NCBI RefSeq assembly: GCF_040744945.1
Contig: NZ_CP160453.1
Span: 1,302,001-1,366,000 of the forward strand
Direction of reading: 5' to 3'
DNA: 64,000 bases
Source of the DNA: Saccharothrix sp. HUAS TT1
GTDB taxonomy: Bacteria; Actinomycetota; Actinomycetes; Mycobacteriales; Pseudonocardiaceae
Position 1 is the first letter of the stretch. Every line of letters begins with the position of its first letter. The position numbers and the translations under genes were made by a program. This document shows, in pieces, positions 1,776 to 25,736 of this stretch. A model generated the notes under the pieces. That model did not search any database. It saw only the letters and a program-made list of their open reading frames with translations, and had not been told where the DNA came from.

Positions 1776-1786
1776 CTTGAGGGGGG

Positions 1787-3784: not shown

Positions 3785-3843
3785 ACCTGAAGTTCCTAGC
3801 CGATCGGACGGCCGGTAACCACAGTCGGCAACCACACACCGGG

Positions 3844-5882: not shown

Positions 5883-6898
5883 CAGCCCTTGGCCTCCCCC
5901 GCGGCGCCGAAGGCGTCCGCCGCATCGTCATCGGCCCGTTCCAGGTTCCGCGCCGCGTCGCGGATGGTCTCCTCGACCTCGAAGAGGACCTGCATGAAGT
6001 CGCCGATCACGTAGACCGCCGACTCCTCGTTGCCCACGGCCACCTCGCGCAGCCGGCGGCTGATCGCGTCGCTGACCCAGTTGTTGCCGAACTTCAGCTC
6101 GACGTCGAGGTTGTTGACCGCGCGGCTGTGCACGTTGTCGACCAGGCTGCGCGCCTGGGCGATCAGCTTGACCAGGTCTTCGACGCCCTGCTTGTCCAGG
6201 TCGAGCTGGACGGACTGCTTGTCGACCGCGTCCAGCGCCGTGTTGGCCTTGTCCAGGTCGGTCTGCGCGGCCTTGGCGAAGCTCTCGGCGGGCACGGGCG
6301 TGGGCACGGGCGCGCCGGCGGTGGCGTCGGCGACCGCCGAGGCGGGCAGCGTCACGGTGGCGCCGCCGTCCGGGGCCGGGGCCGACGCCGGTGGCGGCGC
6401 GGTGGCCGGACCCGCGTTGGGGGCGGGCGGCGGCACGACGGCGGGGCCCGCGTCGACGGCGGGCGGCGGGACGGCTGGGGCCGCGTCAGCCGGTGACGGC
6501 GGAGCGGTGGGGCCCGCGGCAGCCGGTGGCGGTGGGACCGCGCCGGCGGGCAGGGTCACGGTGGGGCTCGGGTCGGCCGTCGGCGAAGCCGGTGCCGGTG
6601 CCGGTGCCGGTGCTGACGAAAGCGGCGGTGCCGACGAAAGCGGTGCCGACGAAAGCGGCGGCGCCGGTGCGAGCGGCGGTGACGCGGGCGGCGGCAGGGG
6701 GGAAGGCGGCATCGGCACCGGTGAAGGCGCGGCCATCGGGTCTACCTGGGCCGGTGAGGGCGGTGGAACCGCTGGGACCACCGGTGGATCGGCCGCGGCC
6801 GGGACCTCGGGCCGGCCCACCGCGGACGGCGTGAAACCCGGCGGGACCTGCACCGTGTGCGCAGCCGCCGAGAATGAGACCGTGTTCCCGTCGCTCAT
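5882..6898 (-). CDS. Pro/Ala-rich protein with C-terminal helical ESX-like domain
   Basis: First gene of the ESX-associated operon, 338 residues. The ATG at 6898 is preceded by AGGGGGT at good spacing. Residues ~20-210 are a Pro/Ala/Ser low-complexity region. The last ~125 residues form amphipathic helices with no W-x-G. Fold and size recall helical partners of PPE-like proteins, but I cannot name a family. The coding region contains short tandem repeats (nt 6587-6660) likely to vary in copy number. It couples to the PPE-like gene through a TGATG overlap. Confidence 0.65.
   Translation of the reverse strand: MSDGNTVSFSAAAHTVQVPPGFTPSAVGRPEVPAAADPPVVPAVPPPSPAQVDPMAAPSPVPMPPSPLPPPASPPLAPAPPLSSAPLSSAPPLSSAPAPAPAPASPTADPSPTVTLPAGAVPPPPAAAGPTAPPSPADAAPAVPPPAVDAGPAVVPPPAPNAGPATAPPPASAPAPDGGATVTLPASAVADATAGAPVPTPVPAESFAKAAQTDLDKANTALDAVDKQSVQLDLDKQGVEDLVKLIAQARSLVDNVHSRAVNNLDVELKFGNNWVSDAISRRLREVAVGNEESAVYVIGDFMQVLFEVEETIRDAARNLERADDDAADAFGAAGEAKG
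6587..6660. repeat. Intragenic minisatellite in the Pro-rich ESX protein
   Basis: Four copies of the hexamer GCCGGT are followed by three imperfect copies of a unit containing GACGAAAGCGG. On the coding (minus) strand they encode Pro/Ala and LSSAP repeats. The reading frame is preserved because the units are multiples of three. Confidence 0.8.
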
Positions 6899-7030
6899 CA
6901 CTACCCCCTGCACTGCGATTCGCCGCGGGCGCTCCGCGCGTTAGCCCGCGACGACCGAAATCAGGCGTTCCGGACGCCCTCTTTAGATGTACCGGGAAGC
7001 CCGTTCGGTTCCAAGCCTCCGAGCAGAGGC

Positions 7031-7708
7031 TTAGCGAAGATGTGAGTCGAACCAGTTCAACGCCCGCTGCCACGCCTCCGCGCCGGCGTCCGGCGTGCTG
7101 TCGAACCGGTGCCCGGTGTGCGAGAACCGGACCACGTCGGTGGCCACCGGCGCGGCCGCCGCGGCGTCGCGCAACTTCTCCACATCGCTGAACGGGATGT
7201 CGGTGTCGTCGTCGCCGTACAGGCCCAGCCACGGGCACGTCAGCTCCTCCGCGACCTCCACCAGCGACGGCAGCCCCGCGGCCAGCGGTTCCAGGATCCC
7301 GCCGCCCCCGACGGTCACCGCGGCGCCGATGGTGCGGCTTCCCGCAACCACCATCGCGACCGATCCGCCCAGGTCGAAGCCCATGACGCCCATCCGGTCC
7401 TGGCTCACGCCCCGCTGCCCCAACCACACGAACGCGACGTCGGTGTCGGCCAGCACGGCCTCGCCGGACAACCCGCTCACCATGGCCGGGGCCTCGTCGC
7501 CGGACACCTCGTCGTAGAGGTGCGGGGCGACGGCCAACCACCCCTCGGCGGCCAGTCCGCTCACCAGACCGCGCACGGTGTCGGTCACGCCGCGCGCCTC
7601 GTGCAGCACGACCAAGCCGCCGCGGACGGCGTTCTCCGGCTCGGCGACGGTCAACCGCAGTTCCCGGCCGTCGGTGAGGGAGATCGTCTCGGTGCGGGTA
7701 GGAGTCAT
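7031..7708 (-). CDS. Dienelactone hydrolase-family alpha/beta hydrolase with Asp nucleophile position
   Basis: 225 residues, matching the single-domain dienelactone hydrolase (DLH) family in length and order: LVVLHEARG oxyanion strand near residue 32, nucleophile elbow GFDLGG at 110-115, acidic segment GDDDTD near 165-170 and C-terminal SHTGHRF with the likely catalytic His at 200. The family normally has Cys (or Ser) in the elbow; here it is Asp112, as in haloalkane dehalogenases and epoxide hydrolases. Whether it is active, and on what, is open. It is monocistronic and divergent from the hisC-like gene. The ATG start at 7708 directly precedes the first beta strand. Confidence 0.8.
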   Translation of the reverse strand: MTPTRTETISLTDGRELRLTVAEPENAVRGGLVVLHEARGVTDTVRGLVSGLAAEGWLAVAPHLYDEVSGDEAPAMVSGLSGEAVLADTDVAFVWLGQRGVSQDRMGVMGFDLGGSVAMVVAGSRTIGAAVTVGGGGILEPLAAGLPSLVEVAEELTCPWLGLYGDDDTDIPFSDVEKLRDAAAAAPVATDVVRFSHTGHRFDSTPDAGAEAWQRALNWFDSHLR

Positions 7709-7829
7709 GGACCAACCCTTCCACGTGGGGGTGAACGGCAGTCAACGTGAGCATCCGTACGGCAGGTATGCCCCATCCGGGTCTTTCACCGGATAACGTC
7801 CAGCTCAGAACCCCGAAGGGAGCCCTTGG

Positions 7830-8897
7830 ATGACCGTGCGAACCCGAGCCGACCTCGTTGCCCTGCCCGGATACGTGCCCGGCAGGACCGTCCCCGGCGC
7901 GATCAAGCTGGCCAGCAACGAGGTGTCGGCCGGACCGCTGCCCAGCGTGGTCCGGGCGATCGCGGACGCGGCCACCGCCGTGAACCGCTACCCCGACACC
8001 GCCGCCACCGACCTCGTGGCGCGCCTGGGTGCCAAGCTCGGCGTGCCGGTCGAGCAGGTGGCCGTCGGCTGCGGCTCGGTGACGTTGTGCCAGCAGCTGG
8101 TGCAGGCGACCTGCACCGAGGCCGACGAGGTGGTGTTCCCGTGGCGCTCCTTCGAGGCGTACCCGATCGTCACCGCGGTCGTCGGCGCGGGCCAGGACCG
8201 GGTGCCGCTGACCCCCGGCCACGCGCTCGACCTGGACGCGATGGCCGCGGCGATCACGCCGAGGACGCGCCTGGTGTTCGTCTGCAACCCGAACAACCCG
8301 ACCGGGACGGCGTTGCGGCGGGCGGACGTCGAGCGGTTCATCGAGCGGGTGCCGTCCGACGTGCTCGTGGTGGTCGACGAGGCGTACAAGGAGTTCGTGG
8401 ACGACCCCGACGTGCCCGACGGCGTGGAGCTGGCGAAGGCGCAGTGGGCGGCGGGCCGGGACAACGTGGCCGTGCTGCGGACGTTCTCCAAGGCGTACGG
8501 CCTGGCCGGGCTGCGGGTCGGGTACGCGGTGGCGTCGCCCGCGGTGGCCGAGACGCTGCGCAAGGTCTACGTGCCGTTCAGCGTGAACGCCCTGGCGCAG
8601 GTGGCGGCGCTGGCGTCGCTGGACGCCGAGGCGGAGCTGATGGCGCGGTGCCGGGCGATCGTGGCGGAACGGGCGCGGGTGCGCGGCGAGCTGCTGGCGG
8701 CCGGGTTCGAGGTGCCCGAGTCGCAGGCGAACTTCGTGTGGCTGCCGCTGGGTGAGCGGACGGCGGCGTTCAACGAGCACTGCCTGGCGCACAAGGTGGT
8801 CGTGCGCGCGTTCGTCGGCGACGGCGCGCGCGTCACGATCGGCGAGCCGGAGGAGAACGACGCGTTCCTGGCCGCTGCCAGGTCGTTCAGCGGGTGA
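7830..8897 (+). CDS. hisC: Histidinol-phosphate / aromatic aminotransferase (HisC-type)
   Basis: 355 residues, the standard size of HisC fold-type I PLP enzymes, which move an amino group between glutamate and histidinol-phosphate or aromatic 2-oxo acids. Visible are the N-terminal KLASNE motif (residues 26-31), NPNNPTG (153-159), DEAY (183-186), the PLP lysine in [10 protein letters not shown] (Lys221) and LRVGY (228-232). It stands alone, away from any his operon, which often marks the aromatic aminotransferase (Pat) paralogue in actinobacteria, so the substrate is uncertain. The ATG has GAAGGGAG upstream. The 3' end overlaps the tauE-like gene tail-to-tail by 11 bp. Confidence 0.88.
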
Positions 8898-9642
8898 GCA
8901 GCTGAACGATGGCCACGACTCCCACCACGACGATCACCGCGCGCAACGCGGTGGGTGGGAGTCGGCGGCCGACCTTCGCGCCGATCTGGCCGCCGACGAC
9001 CGAGCCGATCGCCAGCAGCAGCACGGCCAGCCACGCCACGTCGGCGATGAAGATGAACAGCACGCCCGCGACCAGGTTCACGAACGCGGTCAGCACGTTC
9101 TTCAGGGCGTTCATCCGCTGGATGTGCTCGCTCATGAGCACGCCCATCAGGCCCATCACCAGCACGCCCTGGGCCGCGCCGAAGTAGCCGCCGTAGATGC
9201 CCGCGAGGAACACGCCGATCCACAGCGCGAGGCCGCCGTGCTCCTGCCGCTCCCGCTCGGCGAGCTTCTTGTTCAGCCACGGCTGGGCGATCACCAGCAC
9301 CAGCGCGATGGCGATCAGCACCGGCACGATCGCCGAGAACGCGTCCTCCGGCAGCACCACCAGCAGGATCGCGCCGCCCACGCCGCCGAGCATCGAGGCG
9401 GGCAGCAGCCGCTTCACCCTGGGCGCCTGGCCGGTCAGCTCGCGCCGGTAGCCGAACGCGCCGCTGAGCGAGCCGGGCACCAGGCCGAGGCTGTTGGACA
9501 CGTTGGCCACCACCGGCGGGTAGCCGACGGCCAGCAGCACCGGGAACGTCACCAGGGTGCCGGAGCCCACCACCGTGTTGATCCCACCGGCGAACACACC
9601 GGCCAGGACGACGATGACCGCTTCCAGCGTCGTCACGGCCAC
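8887..9642 (-). CDS. TauE/SafE-family membrane transporter
   Basis: 251 residues, nearly all hydrophobic, with about eight predicted membrane spans and the Gly-rich helix pairs typical of the sulfite exporter TauE/SafE (DUF81) family. Conserved-looking features are [19 protein letters not shown] near the N-terminus and [19 protein letters not shown] in the second half. Members move sulfite, sulfoacetate or other anions across the cytoplasmic membrane; the substrate here cannot be deduced. It converges on the hisC-like gene with overlapping 3' ends. Confidence 0.88.
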
Positions 9643-9753
9643 ACTCCCCGAGCTCGCAGTTGGTTAGCGACGCTAACACTGCGCCGGGCGGGCCGCGGTG
9701 TGGGACTCGCGACACCGCAGCCGGCCCGGTCCGGCGCGGCTCGACCGCGGTCG

Positions 9754-13559: not shown

Positions 13560-13644
13560 GGAAGCGTGGCAGAGCGGCCGAATGCACCCGCCTTGAAAGC
13601 GGGAGACGGGCAACCGTCCGGGGGTTCAAATCCCTCCGCTTCCG
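13560..13644 (+). tRNA. tRNA-Ser (anticodon TGA), integration site of the AICE
   Basis: An 85-nt class II tRNA with acceptor GGAAGCG/CGCTTCC, anticodon loop CTTGAAA (TGA at 13594-13596), a long variable arm and T-arm GGGTTCAAATCCC. CCA is not encoded. It decodes UCN serine codons. Its 3' 52 bases plus one flanking base are duplicated at 21324-21376, so it was the attachment site of an integrating element and was restored on insertion. Confidence 0.96.
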
Positions 13645-13645
13645 C
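13593..13645 (+). repeat. attL core (3' half of tRNA-Ser)
   Basis: 53 bp identical to 21324-21376 without a mismatch. It runs from the anticodon loop of the tRNA to one base past its discriminator, the usual crossover region of tyrosine-recombinase elements that use tRNA genes. Confidence 0.95.
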
Positions 13646-13654
13646 AGGTCGGAT

Positions 13655-13690
13655 GGGGTGTGACCCGGTTCTGACGCCGGGTCGCACCCC
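13655..13690. terminator. Stem-loop after tRNA-Ser
   Basis: Fourteen-base arms (GGGGTGTGACCCGG / CCGGGTCGCACCCC, one mismatch) flank an 8-nt loop, 10 bp after the tRNA. It probably ends the tRNA transcript. It belongs to the element side of attL. Confidence 0.65.
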
Positions 13691-13694
13691 CTCT

Positions 13695-13716
13695 GTGTAG
13701 CAACGGGTGTAGCAAC
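13695..13716 (+). repeat. Arm-type direct repeats near attL
   Basis: Two copies of GTGTAGCAAC with a 12-bp period, about 50 bp inside attL. The same pair occurs inside attR in the same orientation and spacing. Placement and form match integrase arm-binding sites. Confidence 0.65.
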
Positions 13717-13729
13717 GCCCTCAGCCGAG

Positions 13730-13811
13730 TTCGGCCGTGAGCTTCTTCAATAGCCTTGGCCACGTCCAGCGCCATCGGCTGACGCATCCGCTCTGCCCGC
13801 GTACCGCTCAT
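13730..13811 (-). pseudogene. Truncated replication initiator (5' stub)
   Basis: The ATG at 13811 overlaps the transfer-gene stop (TGATG). The first ~26 residues, with RMRQPMALDVAKAIEEAHG, match as I recall it the N-terminus of AICE RepSA-like replication initiators. The similarity stops at about 13734; the frame then reads through the arm repeats and the tRNA flank to a stop at 13626, giving a meaningless tail. The rest of rep, the excisionase and the integrase are missing, as if one deletion joined the rep 5' end to the sequence next to attL. Confidence 0.6.
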
Positions 13812-14330
13812 CACGCCGCCACCCCCTCAGCACCACTGAGCTTGATCGGGAACGGCCGCACATCGGCAGGCCGGAAGTAGTCCCGCAGCTTCCCCAGGTC
13901 CGCATCGGTCATGTGAAAGGCCCGAGCACGCTCCGGTTCCCGTTGCCCGTCCTGCTTGACCCACGCGACACCGGGCGTGTTCTCCGCGATCTCGTGAGCA
14001 GCCGCGCCACACTGCCGGACATCGTCACCAAGCACCATGTCCACCTGCTGTGGCTCATCCAGCCGCAGGGCGACGCGGGCGGTGAACAGGTGCAGGAAGG
14101 ACACGACCTCCTTGCGCGGGTCCTGACCAGGCCGACGACACCGGCACCAACATGACCACCGGGTACCGGACCACGACGAGCGCCAAGCGCACGACCCCGA
14201 CGACCGCCAGCCACACCAGGGCCACCAGTGCCGCGATCCACTTCGCCTTGCCCGGCACCAACACCCACCACGGCACCCGAGGCCGGACGCCCTCGAACGG
14301 AGCCGGGTCGACCCACTTGCCGCCGTTCAC
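13811..14330 (-). pseudogene. Transfer protein (FtsK/SpoIIIE-type TraSA) with internal deletion
   Basis: Two out-of-frame pieces of one gene. The 5' piece starts at GTG 14330 and encodes a short leader and a strongly hydrophobic double-span region (GKAKWIAALVALVWLAVVGV and beyond), as in the N-terminus of AICE transfer pumps. Near 14120 the frame breaks. From there GQDPRKEVVSFLHLF, ARVALRLDEPQQVDMVLGD and STPGV-like NTPGVAWVK match the last ~110 residues of FtsK-type Tra proteins, ending at 13811. The P-loop, Walker B and most of the motor are absent (a normal protein would have several hundred more residues), so transfer function is lost. Stop and rep start overlap as in intact AICEs. Confidence 0.8.
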
Positions 14331-14518
14331 CGCGCACGCCCCACCGGGGCGAAGATCAGCGGCAGCCAGCCCAAGCAGGCACAGCAAACGAGCTGGTTGG
14401 GCGCGTAGACCCCGAACCGCCCGCATGTCCCACAGGGGCGACCATTGGTCAGCTTCCACACTGACGGGGCAACCGCACGTCTTGACGCACGTCCCCCGAC
14501 CACAGATACCCTTGCCAT
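14327..14518 (-). CDS. Small Cys-rich AICE protein
   Basis: 63 residues from ATG 14518, with AAGGGA upstream. It has a CGTCGRFGVYAPNQLVCCAC segment, a probable zinc-knuckle (CxxC...CxxC-like), followed by a short hydrophobic stretch. Its stop overlaps the transfer-gene GTG as GTGA, so it belongs to the core operon. Function unknown. It sits just upstream of tra as small conserved proteins do in other AICEs. Confidence 0.6.
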   Translation of the reverse strand: MARVSVVGGRASRRAVAPSVWKLTNGRPCGTCGRFGVYAPNQLVCCACLGWLPLIFAPVGRAR

Positions 14519-14654
14519 GACCGAAATCCCTTGCGCTCGCAGAATGTGCAGGAGAAATCCGGTCGAGTGAGTCGCGGAGAAGCAGACCAAGGCCCGCCAA
14601 GACTTTAGGGCTGTTTCCCCGCGACTCACACCAACCGGCGAAGTGTCGAAACTG

Positions 14655-15530
14655 TCAGCTCGTCTTGCCCGCAACCGCAGAGGCGTTGTTGGCGAGGTGC
14701 AAGATCATGGCTTGCGACTCTTCCACGCTCAGCGTGTTGGAAAGAATCGACTCCATCGCACCCTGGTACGCGCCAACGCTGTCAGGGTCATCAAGAAGGA
14801 TGCTGTGGTACATCGCGTCGACGTGCACCACCGGCCGGTAGTCGTCCGACCGCATCAACGTGAACGGGTAGCGATCCCAATAGGGCCCAGCCATCAACCG
14901 AGGAAGCACCCGCAAGCCGATCCTGCCGGTGTTGGGCAGCGTGGCGAGATGACGCAACTGCTCAGCCGCCGTCCGCCGGTCCGTGCCCAAGCTGCGCAAG
15001 GTCATCTCACGCACCACGAACACGAACCTCGCCTCTCCCTTCAGTACCCGCTGCCGCTGCGCACGCGCCTGCGACCTCTGCTCGATCTCCTCCGGCGTGG
15101 CGAGCGGGTCACGTTGCAGGACCGCACGGGCGTATGCCGAGGTCTGCGCTAGTGCAGGCACCGCGACCGTCTCATAGGCGAACACCTCCCGCGCCGCCGC
15201 CTCGTGCCGCAGCAACACCGGCAACTCGTCCACCCCACCAGGCCCGTGACCGCTCCCGACGAACCAGTCGCGCGGGTCGGCGTGCAGGCTCATGACTCGG
15301 TCCACCGTGGCCTGGTCCGACCGGTAGAAGCCCAGTAGCCGAGCGATGTTGCCCGTGTCGGTGCCTCGCGTCCCGGCCTCCAGCTTCGACAGCCACCCGG
15401 CCGAGAGCCCAAGCACCTCCGCCATCTCATCGACGTCCGTACCGGACTGTTTTCGGGCCGATCGCAACTCGGCCCCCAATGCCCTGCTCTTCACGGTCGA
15501 ACCCGACCGCGCATACCGCCCGTGGCTCAT
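14655..15530 (-). CDS. XRE-family regulator with DUF5753 domain
   Basis: 291 residues. HTH_31-type DNA-binding domain at about residues 15-75 (LGAELRSARKQSGTDVDEMAEVLGLSAGWLSKLEAGTR), then a DUF5753 domain to the C-terminus. ATG 15530 has GGAGAAG upstream. In actinomycetes such proteins normally pair with a DUF397 partner (as at 57.4 kb), but none is encoded next to this one. It interrupts the expected core order, so it is probably later cargo or an element-specific regulator. Confidence 0.85.
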   Translation of the reverse strand: MSHGRYARSGSTVKSRALGAELRSARKQSGTDVDEMAEVLGLSAGWLSKLEAGTRGTDTGNIARLLGFYRSDQATVDRVMSLHADPRDWFVGSGHGPGGVDELPVLLRHEAAAREVFAYETVAVPALAQTSAYARAVLQRDPLATPEEIEQRSQARAQRQRVLKGEARFVFVVREMTLRSLGTDRRTAAEQLRHLATLPNTGRIGLRVLPRLMAGPYWDRYPFTLMRSDDYRPVVHVDAMYHSILLDDPDSVGAYQGAMESILSNTLSVEESQAMILHLANNASAVAGKTS

Positions 15531-15594
15531 ATCTTCTCCACACCAAAGAGACCCGTTCTAGCACGCACAAACACGCACCGATCCAGGTAGCGGA

Positions 15595-15837
15595 CTAAAT
15601 GATTTCGAACAAATCCTCAAACTTCAAAGGATGCAGCGCCTTCAAAGCTCCTGCAATGAATGCGGGTCCTGGCTGCAACTCACCTCGCCGGACCCGCACC
15701 ACCGTCGAACGGTGCAGGCGCATTCCTTTCGCAAGGGCATAGTCAGACCTGAACCCCGCCAGCGCCGTAGCCTTGTCGAAAAAGCCGAGGCGAAGCTTGA
15801 CGGTGTACCCGTCGCCAATCGCGGGACGCGTACTACC
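15595..15837 (-). pseudogene. Small HTH regulator lacking a normal start codon
   Basis: An 80-codon open stretch in the same frame as, and directly after, the stop of the upstream 92-residue gene. It ends with KALHPLKFEDLFEII. FRSDYALAKGMRLHRSTVVR followed by VRRGELQPGPAFIAGAL is the pattern of the small single-HTH regulators common in AICE core operons. No ATG, GTG or TTG precedes the conserved part; the only in-frame candidate is an ATT at 15819. Either the start codon has been lost by mutation, or translation uses a rare start or read-through. Confidence 0.55.
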
Positions 15838-16116
15838 TCACTCACACGCCGCTCCCACCACACCGACACGAGCGCGCTGGATCTCCGCCCGCCGCTCGAA
15901 CTCCACGGCAGCGACAGCACAGGCATGGCGAGCCCAGACCGGTACCGCAAGATCGCCACCCAGTACCCGCCACGCCTGCGCCACAGCGGAATAACCGACC
16001 GCCAACCGGAACAGCACCGCAGGTTCGTCCGAAGTGGACGCCAGCAACAGCGCAGTGACCTGCTCCGCGTACGCGAGGTTCCACCGGGCGACCGCCTCAC
16101 CAGACGGCCGCGCCAC
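15838..16116 (-). CDS. Hypothetical AICE core protein (92 residues)
   Basis: GTG at 16116 lies 2 bp after the stop of the 152-residue gene. The product is mainly two or three amphipathic helices (RWNLAYAEQVTALLLAS, AVGYSAVAQAWRVLGGD, CAVAAVEFERRAEIQ). No known domain recognised. Position and spacing indicate co-transcription with the AICE core genes. Confidence 0.6.
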   Translation of the reverse strand: MARPSGEAVARWNLAYAEQVTALLLASTSDEPAVLFRLAVGYSAVAQAWRVLGGDLAVPVWARHACAVAAVEFERRAEIQRARVGVVGAACE

Positions 16117-16117
16117 C

Positions 16118-16576
16118 TCAGGCCGCCTTCTGCTCACCCTGGGGCTTCTCCACCCGCTTGGGAGCAGCACCCGTCTGCGGCGACACGAGACCGGTAGCCC
16201 GGATCGCGAACCCCTGGTACTTGTACCGATCCCCCATCACCCGAGGCTCAACCGTCAGCCCCTCGAACGCCACCGGCCACACCTCGACACCGGGCATCAC
16301 CTCCACAGCCTGCGGCGGCACCGGCTGCACGTCAGCCAGGAGCGTCACTGTCACCGATGCGTCCCGCTCCTTCTCTGCGGACGGATCGGTCACCACGACC
16401 CTCCACTGACGCTTGCCCGTGCGCTCGTCCACCCGCTGCTTCGCCTGCCGACCGCGCCCCTTGTCCTCCACGCTCATGTACTCCATGTCCGGCGCGACCT
16501 CACCGACCATCAGCGCTCCCATCGGAAACACCTGGTCAAACGCCGCTTCGAACCGAGTCCCGTACGGAACCGCCAC
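16118..16576 (-). CDS. Hypothetical first gene of the AICE core operon (152 residues)
   Basis: GTG 16576 is preceded by GGAGG. The N-terminal half contains EYMSVEDKGRGRQAKQRVDERTGKR and beta-rich segments (WRVVVTDPS, SVTVTLLADVQPVP, VEVWPVAFEGLTVEPRV). The C-terminus is Lys/Glu-rich. Proteins of this kind lead the transfer/replication operon of many Streptomyces-type AICEs and plasmids, divergent from a GntR regulator as here. Biochemical role unknown. Confidence 0.7.
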   Translation of the reverse strand: MAVPYGTRFEAAFDQVFPMGALMVGEVAPDMEYMSVEDKGRGRQAKQRVDERTGKRQWRVVVTDPSAEKERDASVTVTLLADVQPVPPQAVEVMPGVEVWPVAFEGLTVEPRVMGDRYKYQGFAIRATGLVSPQTGAAPKRVEKPQGEQKAA

Positions 16577-16626
16577 CAGCCACCTCCGTCACCTTGCCAG
16601 CCCGCCTGTCTGAGCTAGACAACTTG

Positions 16627-16656
16627 ACAGTAAGACAGCTTGGCTAGCCAAGTCAA
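16627..16656 (-). promoter_or_regulatory. Promoter of the AICE core operon with palindromic operator in the spacer
   Basis: On the minus strand TTGACT (-35, 16656-16651) and TACTGT (-10, 16632-16627) are 18 bp apart. A perfect 14-bp palindrome CTTGGCTAGCCAAG (16639-16652) overlaps the -35 and fills most of the spacer. A half-site TAGCCAAG recurs at 16702-16709. This is the arrangement expected for repression by the divergent GntR (KorSA/Pra-type) protein. Confidence 0.6.
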
Positions 16657-16709
16657 GTAAGGGGCCTGTGTCAGCCGATCGAGCTAGCTCCCTAGGCGGT
16701 CTAGCCAAG

Positions 16710-16802
16710 TGCGAACATGCGCTGCGAACATTGTGCGAACACACCCAACGTTGGATGGACGCACCCAACGACCTTCACCCGTGACAGCAACCAAGCTGTC
16801 AC
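16710..16802 (+). promoter_or_regulatory. Repeat-rich control region upstream of gntR
   Basis: Three direct copies of TGCGAACA (16710, 16723, 16734), the motif ACCCAACG twice (about 16743 and 16763, the first inside AACGTT), and an inverted repeat GTGACAGC-N6-GCTGTCAC (16781-16802) ending 21 bp before the gntR start. The last is a plausible autoregulatory operator. The direct repeats resemble iterons or a second operator array. Confidence 0.5.
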
Positions 16803-16823
16803 GCAAGCAAGCTTGGGGCCCAC

Positions 16824-17666
16824 ATGGCACTTGATCCCGACGATCCACGACCGCCGTACATGCAGGTGGCCAACGCTCTGCGCGCCGCTATCCTGACCAA
16901 GGTCTTCAAGGCCGGAGACAAGCTCCCATCGCGCGCCGAACTGGCGAAGAAGTACGACGTAGCCCCGATGACCGTGCAGAACGCTCTACGCGAGCTACGC
17001 GACGAAGGCTTGATCGTCTCCCGACAGGGCAGCGGCGTCTTCGTCCGCGAGCGCACCGAACGGCCGGTCGGCCTGCGCCCCCACATCGAACGAGCCTTCG
17101 AGTCCGACCGCGTCACCATCGACTTCTCAGGCTTCTCCGGCGAGACCCTGCACGGCATCCTCCAAGAACCACTGGACAAGATCCGCATCGGCCGCCTCAC
17201 CCCCGAAGCGATCCACGTCCGCATCCTCGTCCCGGATCCCACCGTCCCGTGGTCAGTCCCCGTGACCGTCGAGGACCAGGCCGACAGCCCGGCCTTCCGC
17301 GCACGCGCCGCCGAGATCATGCGCCGCCACACCCTGGCCATCGTGGACAACGTCACCGAGCTGGGCGCCCTCGGCCTGGTCAAGGACGCCACCGCCGAAG
17401 TCCGCGTCCACCGAACCGCCCCACTGTTCAAGCTCTACCTGATCAACAACGACGAAGCCTTCTTCGGCTTCTACCCCGTCCGCGAACACGTCCTATCCCT
17501 AGACGGCCAACCCCAAGCCATCTACGACCTCATGGGCAAAGACGCCATCCTCTTCCACCACAGCACCACCGACGACGACACCAGCACCGGCAGCCAATAC
17601 GTCACTCAAGCCCGCACTTGGTTCAATAGCCTTTGGAACACCATTTCGACGGACTACCGACCATGA
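16824..17666 (+). CDS. GntR-family transcriptional regulator
   Basis: 280 residues. An N-terminal GntR winged helix (about 10-75) contains LPSRAELAKKYDVAPMTVQN and GLIVSRQGSGVFVRE. The C-terminal ~190 residues form a distinct effector domain not obviously of the UTRA or FadR type. Divergent from the AICE core operon, with palindromes in the shared promoter region, it is the likely repressor of transfer/replication genes. It also begins the plus-strand operon: its stop overlaps the HAD gene start as ATGA. GC-rich codon use matches the chromosome, unlike the two genes behind it. Confidence 0.88.
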   Translation: MALDPDDPRPPYMQVANALRAAILTKVFKAGDKLPSRAELAKKYDVAPMTVQNALRELRDEGLIVSRQGSGVFVRERTERPVGLRPHIERAFESDRVTIDFSGFSGETLHGILQEPLDKIRIGRLTPEAIHVRILVPDPTVPWSVPVTVEDQADSPAFRARAAEIMRRHTLAIVDNVTELGALGLVKDATAEVRVHRTAPLFKLYLINNDEAFFGFYPVREHVLSLDGQPQAIYDLMGKDAILFHHSTTDDDTSTGSQYVTQARTWFNSLWNTISTDYRP

Positions 17667-18379
17667 AGGAAATCATAGGCCGCGTAGATGACATCGACAT
17701 GCTGCAGCGCATACTGAATACTACTCGCGGATTTCTGTTTGACTTCGATGGGCCGATCTGCTCCATATTTGCAAATCTTTCAGCCTCTTACGTCGCCCAT
17801 CAACTCAGAAGTGTCTTGATGCGTTGCGGCCACAAAGTTCTACCTCAAGAAGTATCGACCAGTGATGACCCGTTCGATGTCCTTCGATATGCGCGACTAC
17901 TGGGCATGGAAGAATTTCATGAAGTGGAGCAAGCGCTAACCGAATGCGAAGTAGCCGCTAGCGAGACAGCGACGCCGACTGCCGGAGCTGAAAAGCTGAT
18001 CGAATCTCTCGCGGCTCGACATTTCGATTTGGCCATTGTTAGCAACAATAGCGCTGATGCGATCCGTTCCTACATGAACCGACACGGGCTAGTTAAAGCA
18101 TTTAAGTGCATTACGGGGCGCGAAGGCGGCCCAGAGAACTTGAAGCCCGCACCTACACCAATCCTCAAGGCAATGCACGATATCGGTCGGCTTCCACACA
18201 GTTGCTTACTCATCGGTGACTCTGCGTCGGATATGGTGGCTGCCAAAAAAGCGTCATCACTTGCTCTCGGTTACGCGAATAAGCCGCACAAAGCTCAAAC
18301 CCTATTTCAGGCAGGTGCCGATGCTGTGGTCACACAGCTCGAAAGTGTTCAGCGCGCACTAGACTCTTCCATTATTTGA
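17663..18379 (+). CDS. HAD-superfamily hydrolase (phosphoglycolate phosphatase-like)
   Basis: 238 residues from the ATG at 17663 (ATGA overlap with gntR). HAD motifs are complete: FDFDGPI with nucleophile Asp27 and Asp29, VSNNS (motif II), LKPAP with the motif III lysine, and GDSASDM (motif IV). An alpha-helical C1-type cap lies between motifs I and II. It should dephosphorylate a small phosphorylated metabolite in the cytoplasm; substrate unknown. GntR-HAD pairs are familiar in actinomycete genomes. Base composition is much AT-richer than the chromosome, and residue 182 uses the rare TTA leucine codon (18206-18208), so expression may depend on the bldA tRNA. These point to horizontal origin. 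Confidence 0.85.
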   Translation: MKEIIGRVDDIDMLQRILNTTRGFLFDFDGPICSIFANLSASYVAHQLRSVLMRCGHKVLPQEVSTSDDPFDVLRYARLLGMEEFHEVEQALTECEVAASETATPTAGAEKLIESLAARHFDLAIVSNNSADAIRSYMNRHGLVKAFKCITGREGGPENLKPAPTPILKAMHDIGRLPHSCLLIGDSASDMVAAKKASSLALGYANKPHKAQTLFQAGADAVVTQLESVQRALDSSII

Positions 18380-18392
18380 CTGTAGGAAAAAT

Positions 18393-20513
18393 ATGCTTGT
18401 TGACGTTTCGAAGCTATATTCCGATGAGCCGATCGTTGATCCTGTCGCGGACCAATTGCACCGCTCCAGTTTCGCCGTACGCGTAGCATCCGTTATAAAT
18501 GATATAGCTGAGCAAAGCGGAAGCGCGGTCATCGGAGTAGTTGGTCCATGGGGCAGTGGAAAAACATCTCTCGTAAACTTGATCAGTCATGAATTGAGAA
18601 GTGCAGAGGCAACTACCTGGAAGGTCTCCTGGTTCCGACCTTGGTTGTTCGTAGACACCGAATCGCTACTCAGAGAATTTTTTACCACCCTGTCTGACGA
18701 GCTACCGGGAAAGAGGCGTAGGCGAACTAGGATTTCCCTGGCACGCCATCTTCGCAATGTCTCACCAGCAGGTAAAGCCGTGCCTCTCACAGGGCTGGAC
18801 AAGGTGCTGGAAGCGCTATCGAACGCAATCCGCGGTAATGAGTCGATCGAACACACCGGAAAGGTAATCGAAGACCTGACCGGGAAATTTGAGTCGCGCC
18901 TTCTGGTGGTGATTGACGATGTTGATCGCCTTCAGCCTGACGAGCTACTTCTAGTACTCAAAATGGTCCGTGCCGTAGCGAAATTCCCGAACGTATACTA
19001 CGTTCTTTCTTACGACGAATCAACTCTGCTCGACGTTCTGTCCAGTACAGAGATTGCACGAAATAATGTTGCACGCGCACAAGCTTACCTGGAGAAAATC
19101 GTACAAGTCAGATTTGACTTGCCTTCACTGGATACTGGAATAATCAATAGATTTTTCCAGGCACATTTGGATCGTTCGCTAGTAAAGCATGCTCAAGTAC
19201 TTGACAATACAGAGCTTGCGAGATTGCGGACGTGTCTCGACTACCTCATGCGTGAGAAACTTACCACCCCGCGCAGTATCCGTAAGCTTTTCGGTCAAAT
19301 AGATGCAACATTCCCACCCCTCAGAGGCGAAGTTAACTACCTGGATCTATTGTTTCTGACTTATATGCGGGTCTTTGAAAGTCCGATCTACCATCTGCTT
19401 CCTCGTCACCGAGAAAAACTCGTTGATACTGGCGGGTTTTCGATGGACGGAAATGATCTGGCGAAAGAAAGGCAAGATTGGCTCAACCGCCTCAGTGAAG
19501 TAGCAGGAGAAGTTCGGGCAACTTCGATCCTAAAGTTTCTAGGGCAGATATTCTTGCCTATTAGGTCTATTGTCGAAAACATGCCCTACGGCAGTAGGTT
19601 CGTCGATGAACTTGTCGAGAAACAGCGTGTGGGCAGTTCCAGCTACTTCGATCGTTACTTTCACTTCAGTGTTCCGGATTCCGACGTTTCAGACGTAATG
19701 ACGATACGGGCCCTTTGTTCTATATTGGGGGGACGGGAACCCGTTTCAGAGGTTGAGGTTCTCAAGCGGCGTGCCATGGAGCATCCGAGAGAAGTACTTA
19801 TAAAGGTCGATGAAGTCGTGGATCGCGTCGACATTCAGACACTTGACGCATTGATCCGCTGGCTTGTTTCCATTTATATAAATGTCAAAGATGTTCCTAA
19901 GTTGTTCGGATCTCCGCATGATCTTATAGAAAGAATGGTGATTAGACTTTTGGATATGGCTCCAACTGTGCAAGTTCTTCGCTGTTTTAGTATTCTTACA
20001 CAGGGAGAGAACTTGCATCTTAGTGCAAGAATGGCCTGTCGAAATAGTAGAAGAGAAGACCGGAAAGACTGGCATCAGAGGTTCGTTGTGGAACTGGTGC
20101 CTAGACTATGGTCGGCAGTTGAAGCGGTTGCTATGCGTCCTATGAGTGAAGTCAGTGATGACGAGTTTCACTTCGTAACCTACTTGGCAGAACTGACGGA
20201 TGCCGTATCGGTGAAATCCTGGCTCCATCAAAAGATTGAGTCTGGACCATGGACAGTACTGGACGTTTTGACACTCATGGTCCCTTTGCGAACTTATTAT
20301 GGAGGAGTCGATAATGTATGGCGCGTTTCCGATGTTGATCCTGATCGGATTGACCGATTGATTGGAATTGAATACGCTAAGGACCACCTGCGGGACGAAT
20401 TGCGCGTTGATCAGCCTTCTCCGAGAACCATCGAAGACCAAGTAGGGACTCGCGAAAACCGCCAGGCTTACATATTGTCGTTCCTCAAAAATCACCATAC
20501 GCCTGCCGACTAG
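18393..20513 (+). CDS. KAP-family P-loop NTPase
   Basis: 706 residues, ATG 13 bp after the HAD stop, with AGGA upstream. Walker A GPWGSGKTS (residues 51-59) leads to the KAP-typical SWFRPWLF strand (79-86) and Walker B LLVVIDDVD (170-178) followed by RLQPDELL. The membrane spans that many KAP NTPases insert between the Walker motifs are not visible, so this form looks cytosolic. The C-terminal ~350 residues are helical with no recognised domain. KAP NTPases occur in phage-defence and conflict loci and on plasmids. A defence role is inference from family, AT-rich composition and placement on a tRNA-integrated element. Confidence 0.85.
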   Translation: MLVDVSKLYSDEPIVDPVADQLHRSSFAVRVASVINDIAEQSGSAVIGVVGPWGSGKTSLVNLISHELRSAEATTWKVSWFRPWLFVDTESLLREFFTTLSDELPGKRRRRTRISLARHLRNVSPAGKAVPLTGLDKVLEALSNAIRGNESIEHTGKVIEDLTGKFESRLLVVIDDVDRLQPDELLLVLKMVRAVAKFPNVYYVLSYDESTLLDVLSSTEIARNNVARAQAYLEKIVQVRFDLPSLDTGIINRFFQAHLDRSLVKHAQVLDNTELARLRTCLDYLMREKLTTPRSIRKLFGQIDATFPPLRGEVNYLDLLFLTYMRVFESPIYHLLPRHREKLVDTGGFSMDGNDLAKERQDWLNRLSEVAGEVRATSILKFLGQIFLPIRSIVENMPYGSRFVDELVEKQRVGSSSYFDRYFHFSVPDSDVSDVMTIRALCSILGGREPVSEVEVLKRRAMEHPREVLIKVDEVVDRVDIQTLDALIRWLVSIYINVKDVPKLFGSPHDLIERMVIRLLDMAPTVQVLRCFSILTQGENLHLSARMACRNSRREDRKDWHQRFVVELVPRLWSAVEAVAMRPMSEVSDDEFHFVTYLAELTDAVSVKSWLHQKIESGPWTVLDVLTLMVPLRTYYGGVDNVWRVSDVDPDRIDRLIGIEYAKDHLRDELRVDQPSPRTIEDQVGTRENRQAYILSFLKNHHTPAD

Positions 20514-20948
20514 TCAATCAATCAGTTCGTCTCATATGCGTTGCCGAAGTTAGCTCTATGGGATCAAGGCGCGCCGCCTACGGCGGCGCGCGGTGCCGTC
20601 CGGTGCACGTTGGCACCGACTCCCCGCATCGCGGCACGCCGGGCTCCCGCTTCGCTCCGCCCGTCGGCCGCGCGCGGAGTCGGTGCACGTGGTTGGGACG
20701 GCGGCGCGCTGATGGTGGGGAAGTGAGCCGCGGAGCTGCTTCCGGCCGCTGGGCTCCGTGACGATCGCGTGGTCGCACAGCCGACGTGGCTGGGCGCGGC
20801 GATCGACGCCCGCCGACGCTTCGCGCCTGCGGCCAGCGGTGGTGGCTGGTCGCTTGAGGGGGCGGTCTGTTGCCCGTTTGCTCCACTTGACGCGCGGGTT
20901 CAGTCGAACGGCTGGGCGCGATCGAGCTGGAGGGCTGGAGGGCTGGAC
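20514..20948. other. Non-coding stretch with inverted repeats between KAP gene and attR-side ORF
   Basis: The sequence returns abruptly to high GC. It contains a strong hairpin (20569-20591) and a wide inverted repeat CACCGACTCC (20614-20623) / GGAGTCGGTG (20676-20685), with GTGCACGT directly repeated beside each arm (20603-20610, 20683-20690). No convincing gene. It could hold the terminator of the KAP operon and a leftover structured region such as a single-strand origin. Confidence 0.45.
20569..20591. terminator. Terminator of the GntR-HAD-KAP operon
   Basis: A 10-bp perfect stem (GCGCGCCGCC / GGCGGCGCGC) with a 3-nt loop, 55 bp after the KAP stop codon. It is the first stable hairpin downstream. 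Confidence 0.6.
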
Positions 20949-21212
20949 ATGAGTGAGGCAGAAGACCTGAGGGCGTTGGCCGACGCAGCCGCCAGGAGGG
21001 ACGCGGCACAGCGGGCGTACACGGCGGTCGCAAGTGCGGCGCCGCTACGCCACGGAGAAGAGACTCCTGCACCGCATCCCGAGGCTCGTCGCGGGCTCAG
21101 CGCTCGCAACGAGGCACGCGCTCACTTCAGCCACGTGCGGGACCGGGTGCTGGCTCGCCGGGGAGGCTGGATGCCTTGCCGATGCTGCACGGGAGGTACC
21201 GGCCAGGTGTAG
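20949..21212 (+). CDS. Possible small helical protein near attR
   Basis: 87 residues from ATG 20949, with GGAGGG repeats upstream. The N-terminus SEAEDLRALADAAARRDAAQ and the tail HVRDRVLARRGG resemble small actinomycete HTH proteins, but the middle does not fit one, so this may be a decayed gene or a chance frame. The stop falls inside the arm repeats. Confidence 0.3.
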   Translation: MSEAEDLRALADAAARRDAAQRAYTAVASAAPLRHGEETPAPHPEARRGLSARNEARAHFSHVRDRVLARRGGWMPCRCCTGGTGQV

Positions 21213-21228
21213 CTACCGGTGTAGCAAC
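21207..21228 (+). repeat. Arm-type direct repeats near attR
   Basis: GTGTAGCTAC and GTGTAGCAAC with a 12-bp period, matching the pair beside attL with one substitution in the same orientation, about 95 bp inside attR. Likely integrase arm sites. Confidence 0.6.
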
Positions 21229-21323
21229 AGGGCTGGACTGGCATGAACCACGATGAACGGTCCTAGCCCCGTGAGCTGCGGGAACGGTGGAATCTGAACG
21301 GTCCTGGACGGGGAGGGCCGGCA

Positions 21324-21376
21324 TTGAAAGCGGGAGACGGGCAACCGTCCGGGGGTTCAAATCCCTCCGCTTCCGC
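21324..21376 (+). repeat. attR core (duplicate of the tRNA-Ser 3' half)
   Basis: 53 bp identical to 13593-13645. The 5' half of the tRNA is absent, so this copy is not a functional tRNA. It marks the right end of the element. Confidence 0.95.
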
Positions 21377-21379
21377 GAG

Positions 21380-21423
21380 CGCGAGGAGGGCGGTGGGTCC
21401 ACGGGAGCCACCGCCGCCTCGCG
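21380..21423. terminator. Stem-loop just outside attR
   Basis: Near-perfect 16-17-base arms (CGCGAGGAGGGCGGTGG / CCACCGCCGCCTCGCG) with an 11-nt loop. It lies directly after the coding end of the minus-strand membrane protein gene and probably terminates that operon. Before insertion it may have followed the tRNA. Confidence 0.65.
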
Positions 21424-21429
21424 GGAGGC

Positions 21430-22137
21430 TCACCCCCGGGTCTTCTCGACCGCACCGGTCGGGGTCTTTGCGGATTTCAGTTCGCCGCCGATGACGCGCA
21501 TGAGCGCTTCGAAGTTGGCGCCGCAGCGCTGGGCCGCCTGCCTCGCCTGGGCGGCGGTGGGGGAGTTGCCGATTTCCAGCACCGAGACGATGAACTTCCG
21601 GACGGGCTCCTCGACGGTGGGGTCCAGGAGGTGGCCGGTGCCGAGCATCTGGGCGGCGCGCAGTCGCAGGGCCTCCCGGGTCGCGGTGGTGGGACCGTTC
21701 CACTCCTCGGCTTCGGAGTTGGCGAGCGTGGCGGCGTCGCCCATGAGGGTGTTGGCCTGCTCGGCGAAGGCTTCCAGCCGCTTGACGGTGCGGGCCCGCT
21801 CCTCCTCCTGCCGCTTGACCTCGGCGTCCTGGCGCGCGCGCCGGTCCTGCGCGTTGGCGCTCAAGCGGGCTCCTGTGACGGCTCCGCCGAAGCCCAGGGC
21901 CGCGCCGAGGAGGGTGCCGAGGGGGACCAACAAGTCTTTGGGCGTGATGGAGCCGGAGGGGGTGGTCGCTGTCGGCACCACCACCTGGATCGGCACGGCG
22001 GGCGTCGGAGCGGCGCCGGTCGGGGTGGGGGCTGTCGTGCTCGTCGCTGCCGTGAAGGAGAACGCGACGGCGGCGAAGCCGCTCAGCGCGGCCACGGCCA
22101 GGCCGGTGAGTGCCGGACCGCCGAACGGGTCAGGCAT
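21430..22137 (-). CDS. Two-span membrane protein partnered with the STAND-like NTPase
   Basis: 235 residues. A hydrophobic segment (about 9-31), a Thr/Pro-rich loop, a second span with LLVPLGTLLGAALGFGGAV (about 69-87), then a charged coiled-coil segment (about 92-130) and a helical C-terminal domain. The family is not recognised. Its ATG lies inside the 3' end of the NTPase gene (8-bp overlap), so the two are made together. The topology suggests the coiled coil and C-terminus face the cytoplasm, where the NTPase is expected, but this is inference. Confidence 0.65.
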   Translation of the reverse strand: MPDPFGGPALTGLAVAALSGFAAVAFSFTAATSTTAPTPTGAAPTPAVPIQVVVPTATTPSGSITPKDLLVPLGTLLGAALGFGGAVTGARLSANAQDRRARQDAEVKRQEEERARTVKRLEAFAEQANTLMGDAATLANSEAEEWNGPTTATREALRLRAAQMLGTGHLLDPTVEEPVRKFIVSVLEIGNSPTAAQARQAAQRCGANFEALMRVIGGELKSAKTPTGAVEKTRG

Positions 22138-24064
22138 CGCCTTCCTCGAAGCTCTCCGCCAGGAGCTTGCGGAGGTCCGTGAAGTTCAGGTGCAGGTTCC
22201 ACTCCTGGATGTCCAGGTAGTCGCTTTCGAACGAGGACATCCGCGCCATGGTGAGGTCGAGGGTTTCCGGGAAGTCGCCGGGAGCGCTGAAGGACCTCGT
22301 CCTCACGCCGGCGTCGCGCAGGCTGTCCTCCGCCATCTTGACGGCCCTGTCGTCGTACGGGAAGCAGGCCAGGACGCAACCGTGCACCTTCGCCAGCGCC
22401 TCGGCCAGCCACGGCTCCCGGTGCTCCGCGTAGAGCCTGGACAGGTGCAGCGTGAGCCCGGCCAGCGAGAACGAGGCTTCACCTTCCTCCAGCACCTTGT
22501 TGCCGCGGAACTCGTCGGACAGCGCCGCTATCCGCAGGATCGCCGCCTCGACCTCGTCGCCCGCCAGGCTCGCGGTGATGGCGAACTCGTTGAGCGCGGT
22601 CCGCGAGTTCTTGTTCCAGTCCAGCCACTTCTTCTTCTGGAGCAGCAGCGGGGCCAGCGGGGTCCAGACGTCGATGACCGCCCGCCGGGCCTGGCCGTCG
22701 AGGCGGAGGCACTCGGACAGGGCCATGTGGTTCGCGAGGGCCTGCGGTCTCAGCTCGCACGCCCGGCGCGCCAGGGCGATGCCGAACAGGCGCGACCGGG
22801 GGCCGAGGCTTCGCGGGACCGCGGCCTTGTACAGCTCGCGGCCGATCCCGAAGACCTGGCCGGCCCCGTCCTTCAGGTTCCCGCCCCCGCCCAACCGCTC
22901 GATCACCTCGAGCAGGTGGAACCCCGCGGATTCGACCGCCAGGTCGCTCTCGTCCGACATGGCGATGCCGTAGACCGCCTCCGACACCATCGGGTGCCGG
23001 GGCCGCATGATGTCGTCGCCGTAGTTGGCGACGGCCTCCCGCCCCAGCCGGTTGGCCACCTTGCTGCGGAAGCTCGACTCCTCGACGTCGCAGAAGCCGG
23101 CGATCACGCTGCTGGGGATGCCGTCCAGCCCGGCGACGTCGACCAGGGACAGGACGATGACCACGTCCGCGAGCGTCATGTCGCCCGGGGTCACGTCCTG
23201 GGACAGGGACTCCAGCAGGTCGACGAGGTGGGCCCGCAGTTCTTCGGGCGTGTACCGGACGGCGAGCAGCCCGCCGAGCAGCGCCCCGGAACGGGAAGAG
23301 GCGTGAGCGCTCCGCTCGCTGAGCAGCTTGGCCGCGTCGCCGTCCGATAAGCCCTGGATGACGTCGGGCTCGACCGGTTCGAGAGCGCGCCAGCTCTGGA
23401 TTATCCGTCGGGCATCCGATTCGGACACCCGGCCGAAGGGGTGCTTGGTCGAGATCAGCGGCCCCTTGTTCTTCCACGCCTCGACGGGGTTGATCTTGAA
23501 GCCGAGTTCGCGGACCCGCCGGGTCCAGTCCGTGTCGCGACTCGCCAGCAGCAGTTGCAGGCCGCTGGACGCCGGGATGTGGTCGCCCTTGACCAGCTTG
23601 TGCAGCGATTCCAGCAGCAGCTGCGCGTGGTCCGAGACCAGGACGGCGCCCGGGCCGTGGTCCCTCGCCGCGTCCAGCACCTGCTGGGTGAGGACGGCGT
23701 CGTGCCGCTGCCGCCACAGGACCGTGCGCCCGTCGTCCCGGGCCAGCACGGCGGCGGCCTGGCGGAGGGCCGTCGACTTGCCCTCCCCGGTCGGCCCGAT
23801 CACCAGCTCGATGCCTGCCCGACCCTCCCTGATCCTCCGCCGGGTCCGGTCCAGCAGCGAATCGGTGATCTGGAGCCGCCGGAGGCGCGGGTGGACCACG
23901 GCCTCCCACTGCGGTTCGCCGCCGTTGAAGAAACCGGTCAGGTCCTTGTCGGGGGTGATGTCCGAGAAGTCGTCGGGGGTCATGACGACCCAGCCGTTGG
24001 GAGCGCCCGAAGCAGCGGGCGTTTTCATGATGCTCTCGACGCTCAGCCCCTGCTCGTTCAGCAT
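22130..24064 (-). CDS. STAND-like P-loop NTPase with helical C-terminus
   Basis: 644 residues from ATG 24064; a GTG two codons upstream is an alternative, and both have weak Shine-Dalgarno sequences. After ~85 residues comes Walker A GPTGEGKST (90-98), a Walker B-like VLVSDHAQ (141-148) and LLLASRDTDW (170-179), the sensor-like strand seen in STAND/AAA ATPases. A winged-helix-like middle and a long TPR-like helical C-terminal half follow. This is the plan of signal-sensing NTPases used in programmed responses and phage defence. The effector is not obvious; the overlapping membrane protein is the best candidate. The gene sits immediately beyond attR, so it may belong to an older insertion at the same tRNA. 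Confidence 0.7.
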   Translation of the reverse strand: MLNEQGLSVESIMKTPAASGAPNGWVVMTPDDFSDITPDKDLTGFFNGGEPQWEAVVHPRLRRLQITDSLLDRTRRRIREGRAGIELVIGPTGEGKSTALRQAAAVLARDDGRTVLWRQRHDAVLTQQVLDAARDHGPGAVLVSDHAQLLLESLHKLVKGDHIPASSGLQLLLASRDTDWTRRVRELGFKINPVEAWKNKGPLISTKHPFGRVSESDARRIIQSWRALEPVEPDVIQGLSDGDAAKLLSERSAHASSRSGALLGGLLAVRYTPEELRAHLVDLLESLSQDVTPGDMTLADVVIVLSLVDVAGLDGIPSSVIAGFCDVEESSFRSKVANRLGREAVANYGDDIMRPRHPMVSEAVYGIAMSDESDLAVESAGFHLLEVIERLGGGGNLKDGAGQVFGIGRELYKAAVPRSLGPRSRLFGIALARRACELRPQALANHMALSECLRLDGQARRAVIDVWTPLAPLLLQKKKWLDWNKNSRTALNEFAITASLAGDEVEAAILRIAALSDEFRGNKVLEEGEASFSLAGLTLHLSRLYAEHREPWLAEALAKVHGCVLACFPYDDRAVKMAEDSLRDAGVRTRSFSAPGDFPETLDLTMARMSSFESDYLDIQEWNLHLNFTDLRKLLAESFEEGDA

Positions 24065-24124
24065 CTTCACAGTGTAGGGACGTCCACGGCACGGCATGGC
24101 GGACGACGACCGGGTTCGCGACGC

Positions 24125-24164
24125 GGATCGGGGCGGCCCACCGCGTGGTGGGCCGCCCCGATCC
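24125..24164 (-). terminator. Terminator of the M28 peptidase gene
   Basis: A perfect 18-bp stem (GGATCGGGGCGGCCCACC and its complement) with a GCGT loop, 12 bp past the stop codon of the peptidase gene. It is among the strongest hairpins in the window and also separates this gene from the NTPase operon. Confidence 0.85.
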
Positions 24165-24176
24165 GGACCTCGTGCC

Positions 24177-25736
<1,560 letters not shown>

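Follow-up and report, generated by a model that had tools for sequence, protein, structure and literature searches.

A probable decayed actinomycete integrative and conjugative element at a tRNA-Ser(TGA) gene of Saccharothrix sp. HUAS TT1, and the family to which it belongs

We analysed a 64,000-nucleotide stretch of the Saccharothrix sp. HUAS TT1 genome (the window; C1:1302001-1366000 of an 8.7-Mb assembly in 2 contigs, 99% complete) and conclude, with a probability of about 0.93, that 7.7 kb of it is a decayed actinomycete integrative and conjugative element (AICE) of the RepSA type, inserted in a tRNA-Ser(TGA) gene. Direct repeats bound the element at an att site used by AICEs, and between them lie remnants of the modules that two intact relatives, G024 and G009, carry at the same tRNA gene. 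An earlier note, made from the sequence alone, had proposed that two deletions immobilised an AICE here, and comparison with the intact relatives places both. The element is real and well preserved but is an ordinary decayed AICE; the layout of the surrounding family is of greater interest.

The attL core, which forms the 3' part of the tRNA gene, and the attR core are identical at 53 of 53 positions (97% over 59 bp), and the coordinates given for them in the earlier note proved right. In a control of 500 block shuffles the longest exact match was 15 bp. One pair of arm repeats with the consensus GTGTAGC(A/T)AC lies inward of each core. The att sites and arm repeats had been taken to be kept, and paired arms are indeed found at both ends, as in G024 and G009; the left pair begins 50 bp past the last base of the attL core, likewise in both relatives, and the core-to-arm spacing at each end is equal in all three elements. 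Allowing at most one mismatch, the 22-bp arm pattern occurred at 11 sites in 7 of the 25 genomes of the genus, each adjoining a copy of the attachment core, and the reversed pattern occurred at none. A cis-mobilizable element (CIME) is one that has attL and attR and lacks recombination and transfer genes. The present element has both sites and neither kind of gene, which makes it a potential cis-mobilizable relic; the name CIME is in use in the accessible text of PMC4891641.

The lesions lie beside attL. Compared with G009 and with a third genome, G012, ~3 kb is missing, such that the last 8 codons of the integrase gene are fused to the first 20 codons of rep. The integrase remnant reads KKLTAELG followed by a stop codon and is identical to the tail of the G012 integrase. 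A rep stub beside attL had been predicted to stop near 13734; the stub stands, as codons 1-20, but its end does not, as the bases at that position belong to the integrase tail. The second deletion removed ~930 bp from the FtsK-type tra gene at a ~9-bp microhomology, ACCAGGCCG, which G024 carries on the C-terminal side and G009 on the N-terminal side. The reading frame is lost at this junction and the N- and C-terminal pieces lie in different frames, in agreement with the out-of-frame join placed near 14120. Both deletions probably arose by ordinary illegitimate recombination; the tra join lies within the ~9 bp of shared sequence.

An intact AICE would carry a site-specific recombinase beside att, a replication gene and an FtsK/SpoIIIE-type Tra. 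Here 8 codons of the integrase and 20 codons of RepSA remain (no profile search was made for RepAM or Prim-Pol, and no frame is left for either), and tra has lost its middle part and its frame. None of the 17 PF00589 and 3 PF00239 matches of the genome falls within the interval, nor did a cognate integrase query find a match there. The latter is the better test, because the PF00589 search misses one integrase of this genome, that of element L032. Thus the view that no recombinase frame lies inside the element holds for tyrosine and serine recombinase profiles and for the cognate query, but an 8-codon integrase trace remains.

G024 (element L105) and G009 (L106) carry whole AICEs at tRNA-Ser(TGA) with the same att sites, arms and gene order: integrase, RepSA, Tra, small genes, a gene in the position of pra, a GntR-type regulator, a HAD hydrolase, other cargo, a 170-bp non-coding region, arms and attR. 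Pfam identified the G024 proteins as a tyrosine integrase (1.2e-23), RepSA (7.1e-105) and an FtsK/SpoIIIE-type Tra (2.8e-8). An alignment with intact AICEs at tRNA-Ser, which the earlier note had recommended, located the deletions and showed the window element to be otherwise colinear with these relatives, strong divergence being limited to the HAD gene and the gene after it. Identity to G024 DNA was 80% over 14141-17666 and 91% over 20542-21376, and the HAD-KAP stretch gave no DNA alignment to G024.

A third AICE copy, that of G012, seems to be split over two contigs; the integrases of G024, G009 and G012 share 86-91% identity. In G012 (L107, 3929-19900 with the tRNA turned to the plus strand; L108) two elements stand in tandem at tRNA-Ser(TGA), and ~5 kb separates two core copies on another contig. 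Another genome, G016, holds a 3.7-kb element (L111, 5024-8705) with a truncated integrase at its left end and arms of the window element's family at its right; it is perhaps a hybrid.

Table 1. Features of the element and its insertion site, in window coordinates.
Feature	Position	Strand	Basis or remark
tRNA-Ser(TGA), whole, integration target	13560..13645	+	ARAGORN; Rfam tRNA
attL core, 53 bp	13593..13645	+	repeat match
Left arm-repeat pair, GTGTAGCAAC N2 GTGTAGCAAC	13695..13716	+	
Integrase gene 3' remnant, last 8 codons and stop	13721..13750	-	alignment to G012 and G009
repSA 5' remnant, first 20 codons	13752..13811	-	alignment to G009 and G012
tra (FtsK-type) C-terminal remnant, ~104 residues	13811..14125	-	
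tra deletion junction, within ACCAGGCCG	14129..14139	not assigned	
tra N-terminal remnant, other frame, start near 14600	14139..14600	-	
XRE-family regulator with DUF5753	14655..15530	-	Pfam; 74% identical in G024
Small helix-turn-helix gene, no usual start codon seen	15598..15810	-	homologous to a 76-aa G024 gene (69%)
Small hypothetical gene	15838..16170	-	81% identical in G024
Gene in pra (SCO3933) position, divergent from GntR	16118..16576	-	89% identical in G024; position after the accessible text of PMC8584621
GntR-type regulator (KorSA position)	16824..17666	+	95% identical in G024, 92% in G009
HAD hydrolase, overlaps GntR, DxD motif present	17633..18379	+	42% identical in G024, 43% in G009
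KAP P-loop NTPase, PifA family, cargo	18393..20513	+	GC at third codon positions 0.48
Conserved non-coding hairpin region, putative replication origin	20538..20709	+	
Right arm-repeat pair, GTGTAGCTAC N2 GTGTAGCAAC	21207..21228	+	
attR core, 53 bp	21324..21376	+	repeat match

The surviving genes include the XRE-family and GntR-type regulators. The GntR-type protein has a clear GntR helix-turn-helix (Pfam 3.5e-19) and no Pfam match to UTRA; in its structural model the remainder is weakly phospholipase-D-like by Foldseek (TM ~0.35), a likeness not seen with VIA-align, whose rows were limited to the helix-turn-helix. A common origin of this effector domain with that of the DUF5919 regulators found in other elements was considered and is not claimed (hhalign probability below 1%). 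The divergent gene in the pra position gave no NCBIfam match and only Pfam matches below the cut-off.

The cargo gene encodes a KAP NTPase that matches the PADLOC PifA model (6.6e-74) over residues 7-483 of 706, leaving the C-terminal third outside the match. Its Walker A motif is intact, with W53 G54 and G56 K57 invariant in 45 aligned sequences including the query, and both the profile and the motif place it in the PifA family. The structural model is confident over the full length (mean pLDDT 88.8); the best likeness in the PDB is to RdrA of RADAR, followed by Cdc6/ORC ATPases, with low TM-scores of 0.2-0.36 by query. By analogy with PifA, this NTPase probably excludes phage. Nine of 60 related genomes gave any match to it, the highest identity being 27% (residues 9-529); another relative, 28% identical, lies in a Cryobacterium gelidum contig, and the closest protein in a large database is 42% identical. 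KAP is distant from all of these relatives and is thus a foreign cargo gene.

The intact GntR-HAD-KAP block had been read as a sign of selection. This part of the earlier interpretation finds no support in the form given: the XRE, small and pra-position genes are intact as well, and the dead tra is hardly more relaxed than living tra. The ratio of nonsynonymous to synonymous substitution rates (dN/dS) in the C-terminal tra piece was 0.24 against G024 and 0.17-0.27 over four relatives, compared with 0.12-0.21 for intact pairs in the same columns. For the N-terminal piece the values were 0.25 against G024 and 0.25-0.61 over relatives, compared with 0.31-0.51 for intact pairs. Any relaxation is thus confined to the C-terminal piece, where dN/dS is at most slightly raised. 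Because dead and living tra differ so little, we rejected the low dN/dS of survivors (against G024, ~0.06 for GntR and ~0.14 for the pra-position gene) as evidence for selection. The deletions look too recent, and therefore the intact frames say nothing yet on selection.

A cognate integrase was not found elsewhere in the genome, where matches were confined to pieces at 30-45% identity; the best consisted of three pieces of a single frame, at 37-45%. The element appears unable to excise, replicate or transfer by itself and, because the genome holds no cognate integrase, appears to be fixed at present. With att sites and arms in place, it could be excised by a G009/G024-type AICE entering the cell, either in trans or, once the two are integrated in tandem, in cis; accretion at tRNA-Ser(TGA) is observed in the tandem elements of G012. 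The same genome holds three complete sister AICEs with other end repeats, L030, L031 and L032, whose 170-bp regions are 87-88% identical to the window copy. The Rep proteins of L030 and L031 are 92% and 66% identical to the G024 Rep, and a resident sister could supply Rep and perhaps Tra. While integrated, the element probably still expresses the Kor-like regulator, the HAD hydrolase and the PifA-like NTPase.

The 170-bp hairpin region served as a marker for the wider family. A 301-bp query containing it matched all 25 genus genomes (2-10 matches each) and 128 of 200 genomes of the taxonomic family. The long stem of the region is conserved in an RNAalifold analysis of 53 distinct copies, drawn from the 54 of 66 sites with sufficient length, with almost no covariation, because the alignment columns hardly vary. 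The region matched no Rfam family and no plasmid. Within it lies a near-invariant GGATCAAGGC (reverse strand GCCTTGATCC), which is reminiscent of the pC194-type nick site. Contig ends truncated 4 of the 66 sites, leaving 62 assessable. Scoring int, rep and tra as present at a profile coverage of at least 0.75 in one frame, we found all three in 38 elements, while 24 lacked at least one; because the marker lies at the right end, the survey is more sensitive to losses on the left side. A direct repeat was found in 33 of the 38 intact and 17 of the 24 reduced elements, and the extent of loss among the latter varies, down to scraps.

Comparison of these elements revealed a recurring arrangement to the left of the hairpin region. 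A full GntR gene is accompanied by a full HAD gene in 10 elements and by a broken one in L176, and no element has a full HAD without GntR. In L137 and L154 the end of HAD lies 23 and 38 nt from the 170-bp region; in other elements differing genes occupy this slot. Among elements with GntR these are KAP in the window, DUF4411 and IrrE-type proteins in L127, a NACHT protein in L128, an HNH protein in L174, Nudix- and HD-like genes in L170, DUF5677 in L105, and unknowns in L106 and L130. The reduced elements L180 and L126, which have HAD fragments, hold type II CBASS and PDC-M02, respectively. The L180 system (3192-7796) looks complete, with cyclase, E1-E2, HNH-SAVED and single-transmembrane proteins; the 5.6-kb AICE remnant around it has none of int, rep and tra. 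The slots of further elements hold Shedu (L157, intact), type I CBASS (L165, intact), AbiU (L162, reduced) and many unknowns.

The HAD position in the window is also the site of Nudix or inositol-phosphatase genes in many other family elements; there, a regulator with a DUF5919 domain may be accompanied by Nudix and HD genes or by inositol-phosphatase genes, or a 141-aa Nudix gene is present. Of the 38 intact elements, 32 carry a relative of HAD, Nudix, HD or inositol-phosphatase no more than 6.5 kb from the hairpin region. Such a phosphohydrolase is not universal in the family, since phmmer found none within this distance in the other six (L146, L160, L178, L179, L183 and L031). HAD was also considered as a gene confined to AICEs; its relatives (E 1e-10 or better) occur in 21 of the 25 genus genomes, some of them outside the surveyed elements.

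HAD is far more divergent than its neighbours. In pairwise comparisons of the ten GntR-HAD elements, the pra-position gene has a median identity of 87%, GntR of 91% and the 170-bp region of 88% (DNA), compared with 47% (39-90%) for HAD. In the seven of these that are intact, rep and tra stand at 86% and 79% and int at 23%, such that integrases vary more than HAD. The 18 Nudix-type elements show no comparable contrast (regulator 63%, Nudix 74%, HD 63%). With 47% identity between conserved neighbours, HAD is therefore either swapped or diversifying. In pSAM2, the Nudix protein Pif blocks redundant transfer (conjugal immunity), according to the accessible text of PMC3218068; by analogy, HAD may play a similar role.

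These features invite the reading that the relic is a domesticated immunity cassette, kept by selection, in which GntR-HAD and the PifA-like KAP guard the host against sister AICEs and phage. Besides the PifA-like KAP and the variability of HAD, it draws on the slot of reduced elements, which holds type II CBASS, PDC-M02, AbiU or a NACHT protein. We consider it rather doubtful. Shedu and type I CBASS lie in intact elements, and the broken parts show hardly any trace of the decay that comes with age. Strong PADLOC matches (E 1e-50 or better, a line set after the results were seen) were found in 4 of 12 reduced and 2 of 20 intact elements, so that the excess of defence cargo among the reduced ones is not significant (Fisher p = 0.17); counting the L128 NACHT protein, which is absent from PADLOC, gives 5 of 12 (p = 0.07). 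Six scanned reduced elements (L130, L166, L168, L171, L175 and L181) gave no or weak matches. The scan covered 32 of the 62 assessable elements, including 12 of the 24 reduced, picked for a slot gene and not at random. Weaker matches were left uncounted on both sides, for example SoFic (9.4e-23, L149), a short-Ago-associated restriction endonuclease (8.7e-26, L142) and a TIR protein (L032).

A broader proposal, which we hold to be unlikely as a whole, is that the AICE family has a layout of regulator, phosphohydrolase, variable and at times anti-phage cargo slot, and origin-like hairpin, with HAD acting as an exclusion factor with diversifying alleles. After loss of int, rep and tra, the regulator-HAD-cargo unit would go on working as a cassette that confers immunity to sister AICEs and phage, movable by a helper through its att sites, arms and origin. 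Among the first open-licence papers listed for AICEs with defence systems, one (PMC11706625) uses the word AICE and none describes the cargo slot.

Very unlikely, in our judgement, is a maintained non-autonomous satellite, for which loss of int, rep and tra was adaptive and which hijacks incoming sister AICEs as phage satellites do. The cis sites looked for are retained, reduced elements recur (24 of 62), tandem accretion occurs in G012, and L128 and L130, reduced and at another att site, retain GntR, HAD and the gene in the pra position intact (coverage of the last 1.00 and 0.86). However, the varying degrees of loss are as expected of random decay, no conserved minimal form was found among the surveyed elements, and the frame-lost tra pieces persist in the window element, which is therefore not streamlined. 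Additionally, the truncated left integrase of the G016 element matched none of the three sister integrases queried.

Several points weigh against our conclusion of a decayed, immobile AICE. A transfer locus (clt) was not identified in the element, and both its immobility and its mobilisation by a helper are matters that we infer. The treatment of G012 as one element over two contigs is a reading without proof, and an immunity role of HAD or KAP is drawn by analogy only. Both deletions rest on a single assembly, but an assembly or sequencing artefact is scarcely credible, given that both junctions cleanly join positions that are homologous to those of the intact relatives, with a microhomology at one of them, that the genome is in 2 contigs and 99% complete, and that its other three AICEs are whole.

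The flanks of the element also differ among genomes. Window positions 1459-9715 are found inverted (9.7-1.4 kb) to the right of the tRNA-Ser(TGA) core in G008, G010, G005, G018, G011 and G003, a rearrangement within the genus. Directly right of attR, 2.8 kb (21377-24187) is not matched in the flanking DNA of the aligned relatives; this stretch holds a gene for a 702-aa nSTAND_NTPase5 protein (22130-24238, minus strand; Pfam 1.1e-29) and an overlapping 235-aa open reading frame.

The decayed AICE in the window is a clean, recent case of lost mobility that can be compared with intact copies in the same tRNA gene. Furthermore, with the layout of regulator, phosphohydrolase, cargo slot, hairpin region and attR as a guide, AICEs and AICE remnants of this actinomycete family can easily be found, together with any defence cargo.

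The class itself is already known. Streptomyces decayed or defective AICEs (DAICEs) were described by Choufa et al. 2022 (PMC9513070), and the decay seen here is the same: in the accessible text of that paper, direct repeats, a truncated integrase and cargo persist at a site that is occupied by a complete AICE in a related strain, and cis mobilisation by accretion is proposed. In contrast, the window element lies in another genus and at another att site, and its exact joins, arm repeats and cargo slot are described here. A DAICE as defined there keeps traB, whereas in the window element the tra pieces are present but broken and int, rep and tra are all lost. Similarly, Frankia elements in which tra or rep is missing were called remnants or mobilizable integrating elements by Ghinet et al. 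2011 (PMC3218068, accessible text); they share the loss of core genes, but lack one of tra and rep, not int, rep and tra together. The S. coelicolor AICE remnant SCO3937, as given in the accessible text of PMC8584621, has a divergent kor/pra pair (SCO3932/SCO3933) comparable to GntR and the pra-position gene. Unlike the window element, it keeps a serine integrase, and SCO3932 has a UTRA domain, whereas the remainder of the window GntR has no good Pfam match and is weakly phospholipase-D-like. Finally, apart from its C-terminal third, the KAP NTPase is like the phage-exclusion NTPase PifA, and exclusion of phage is predicted for it as well.

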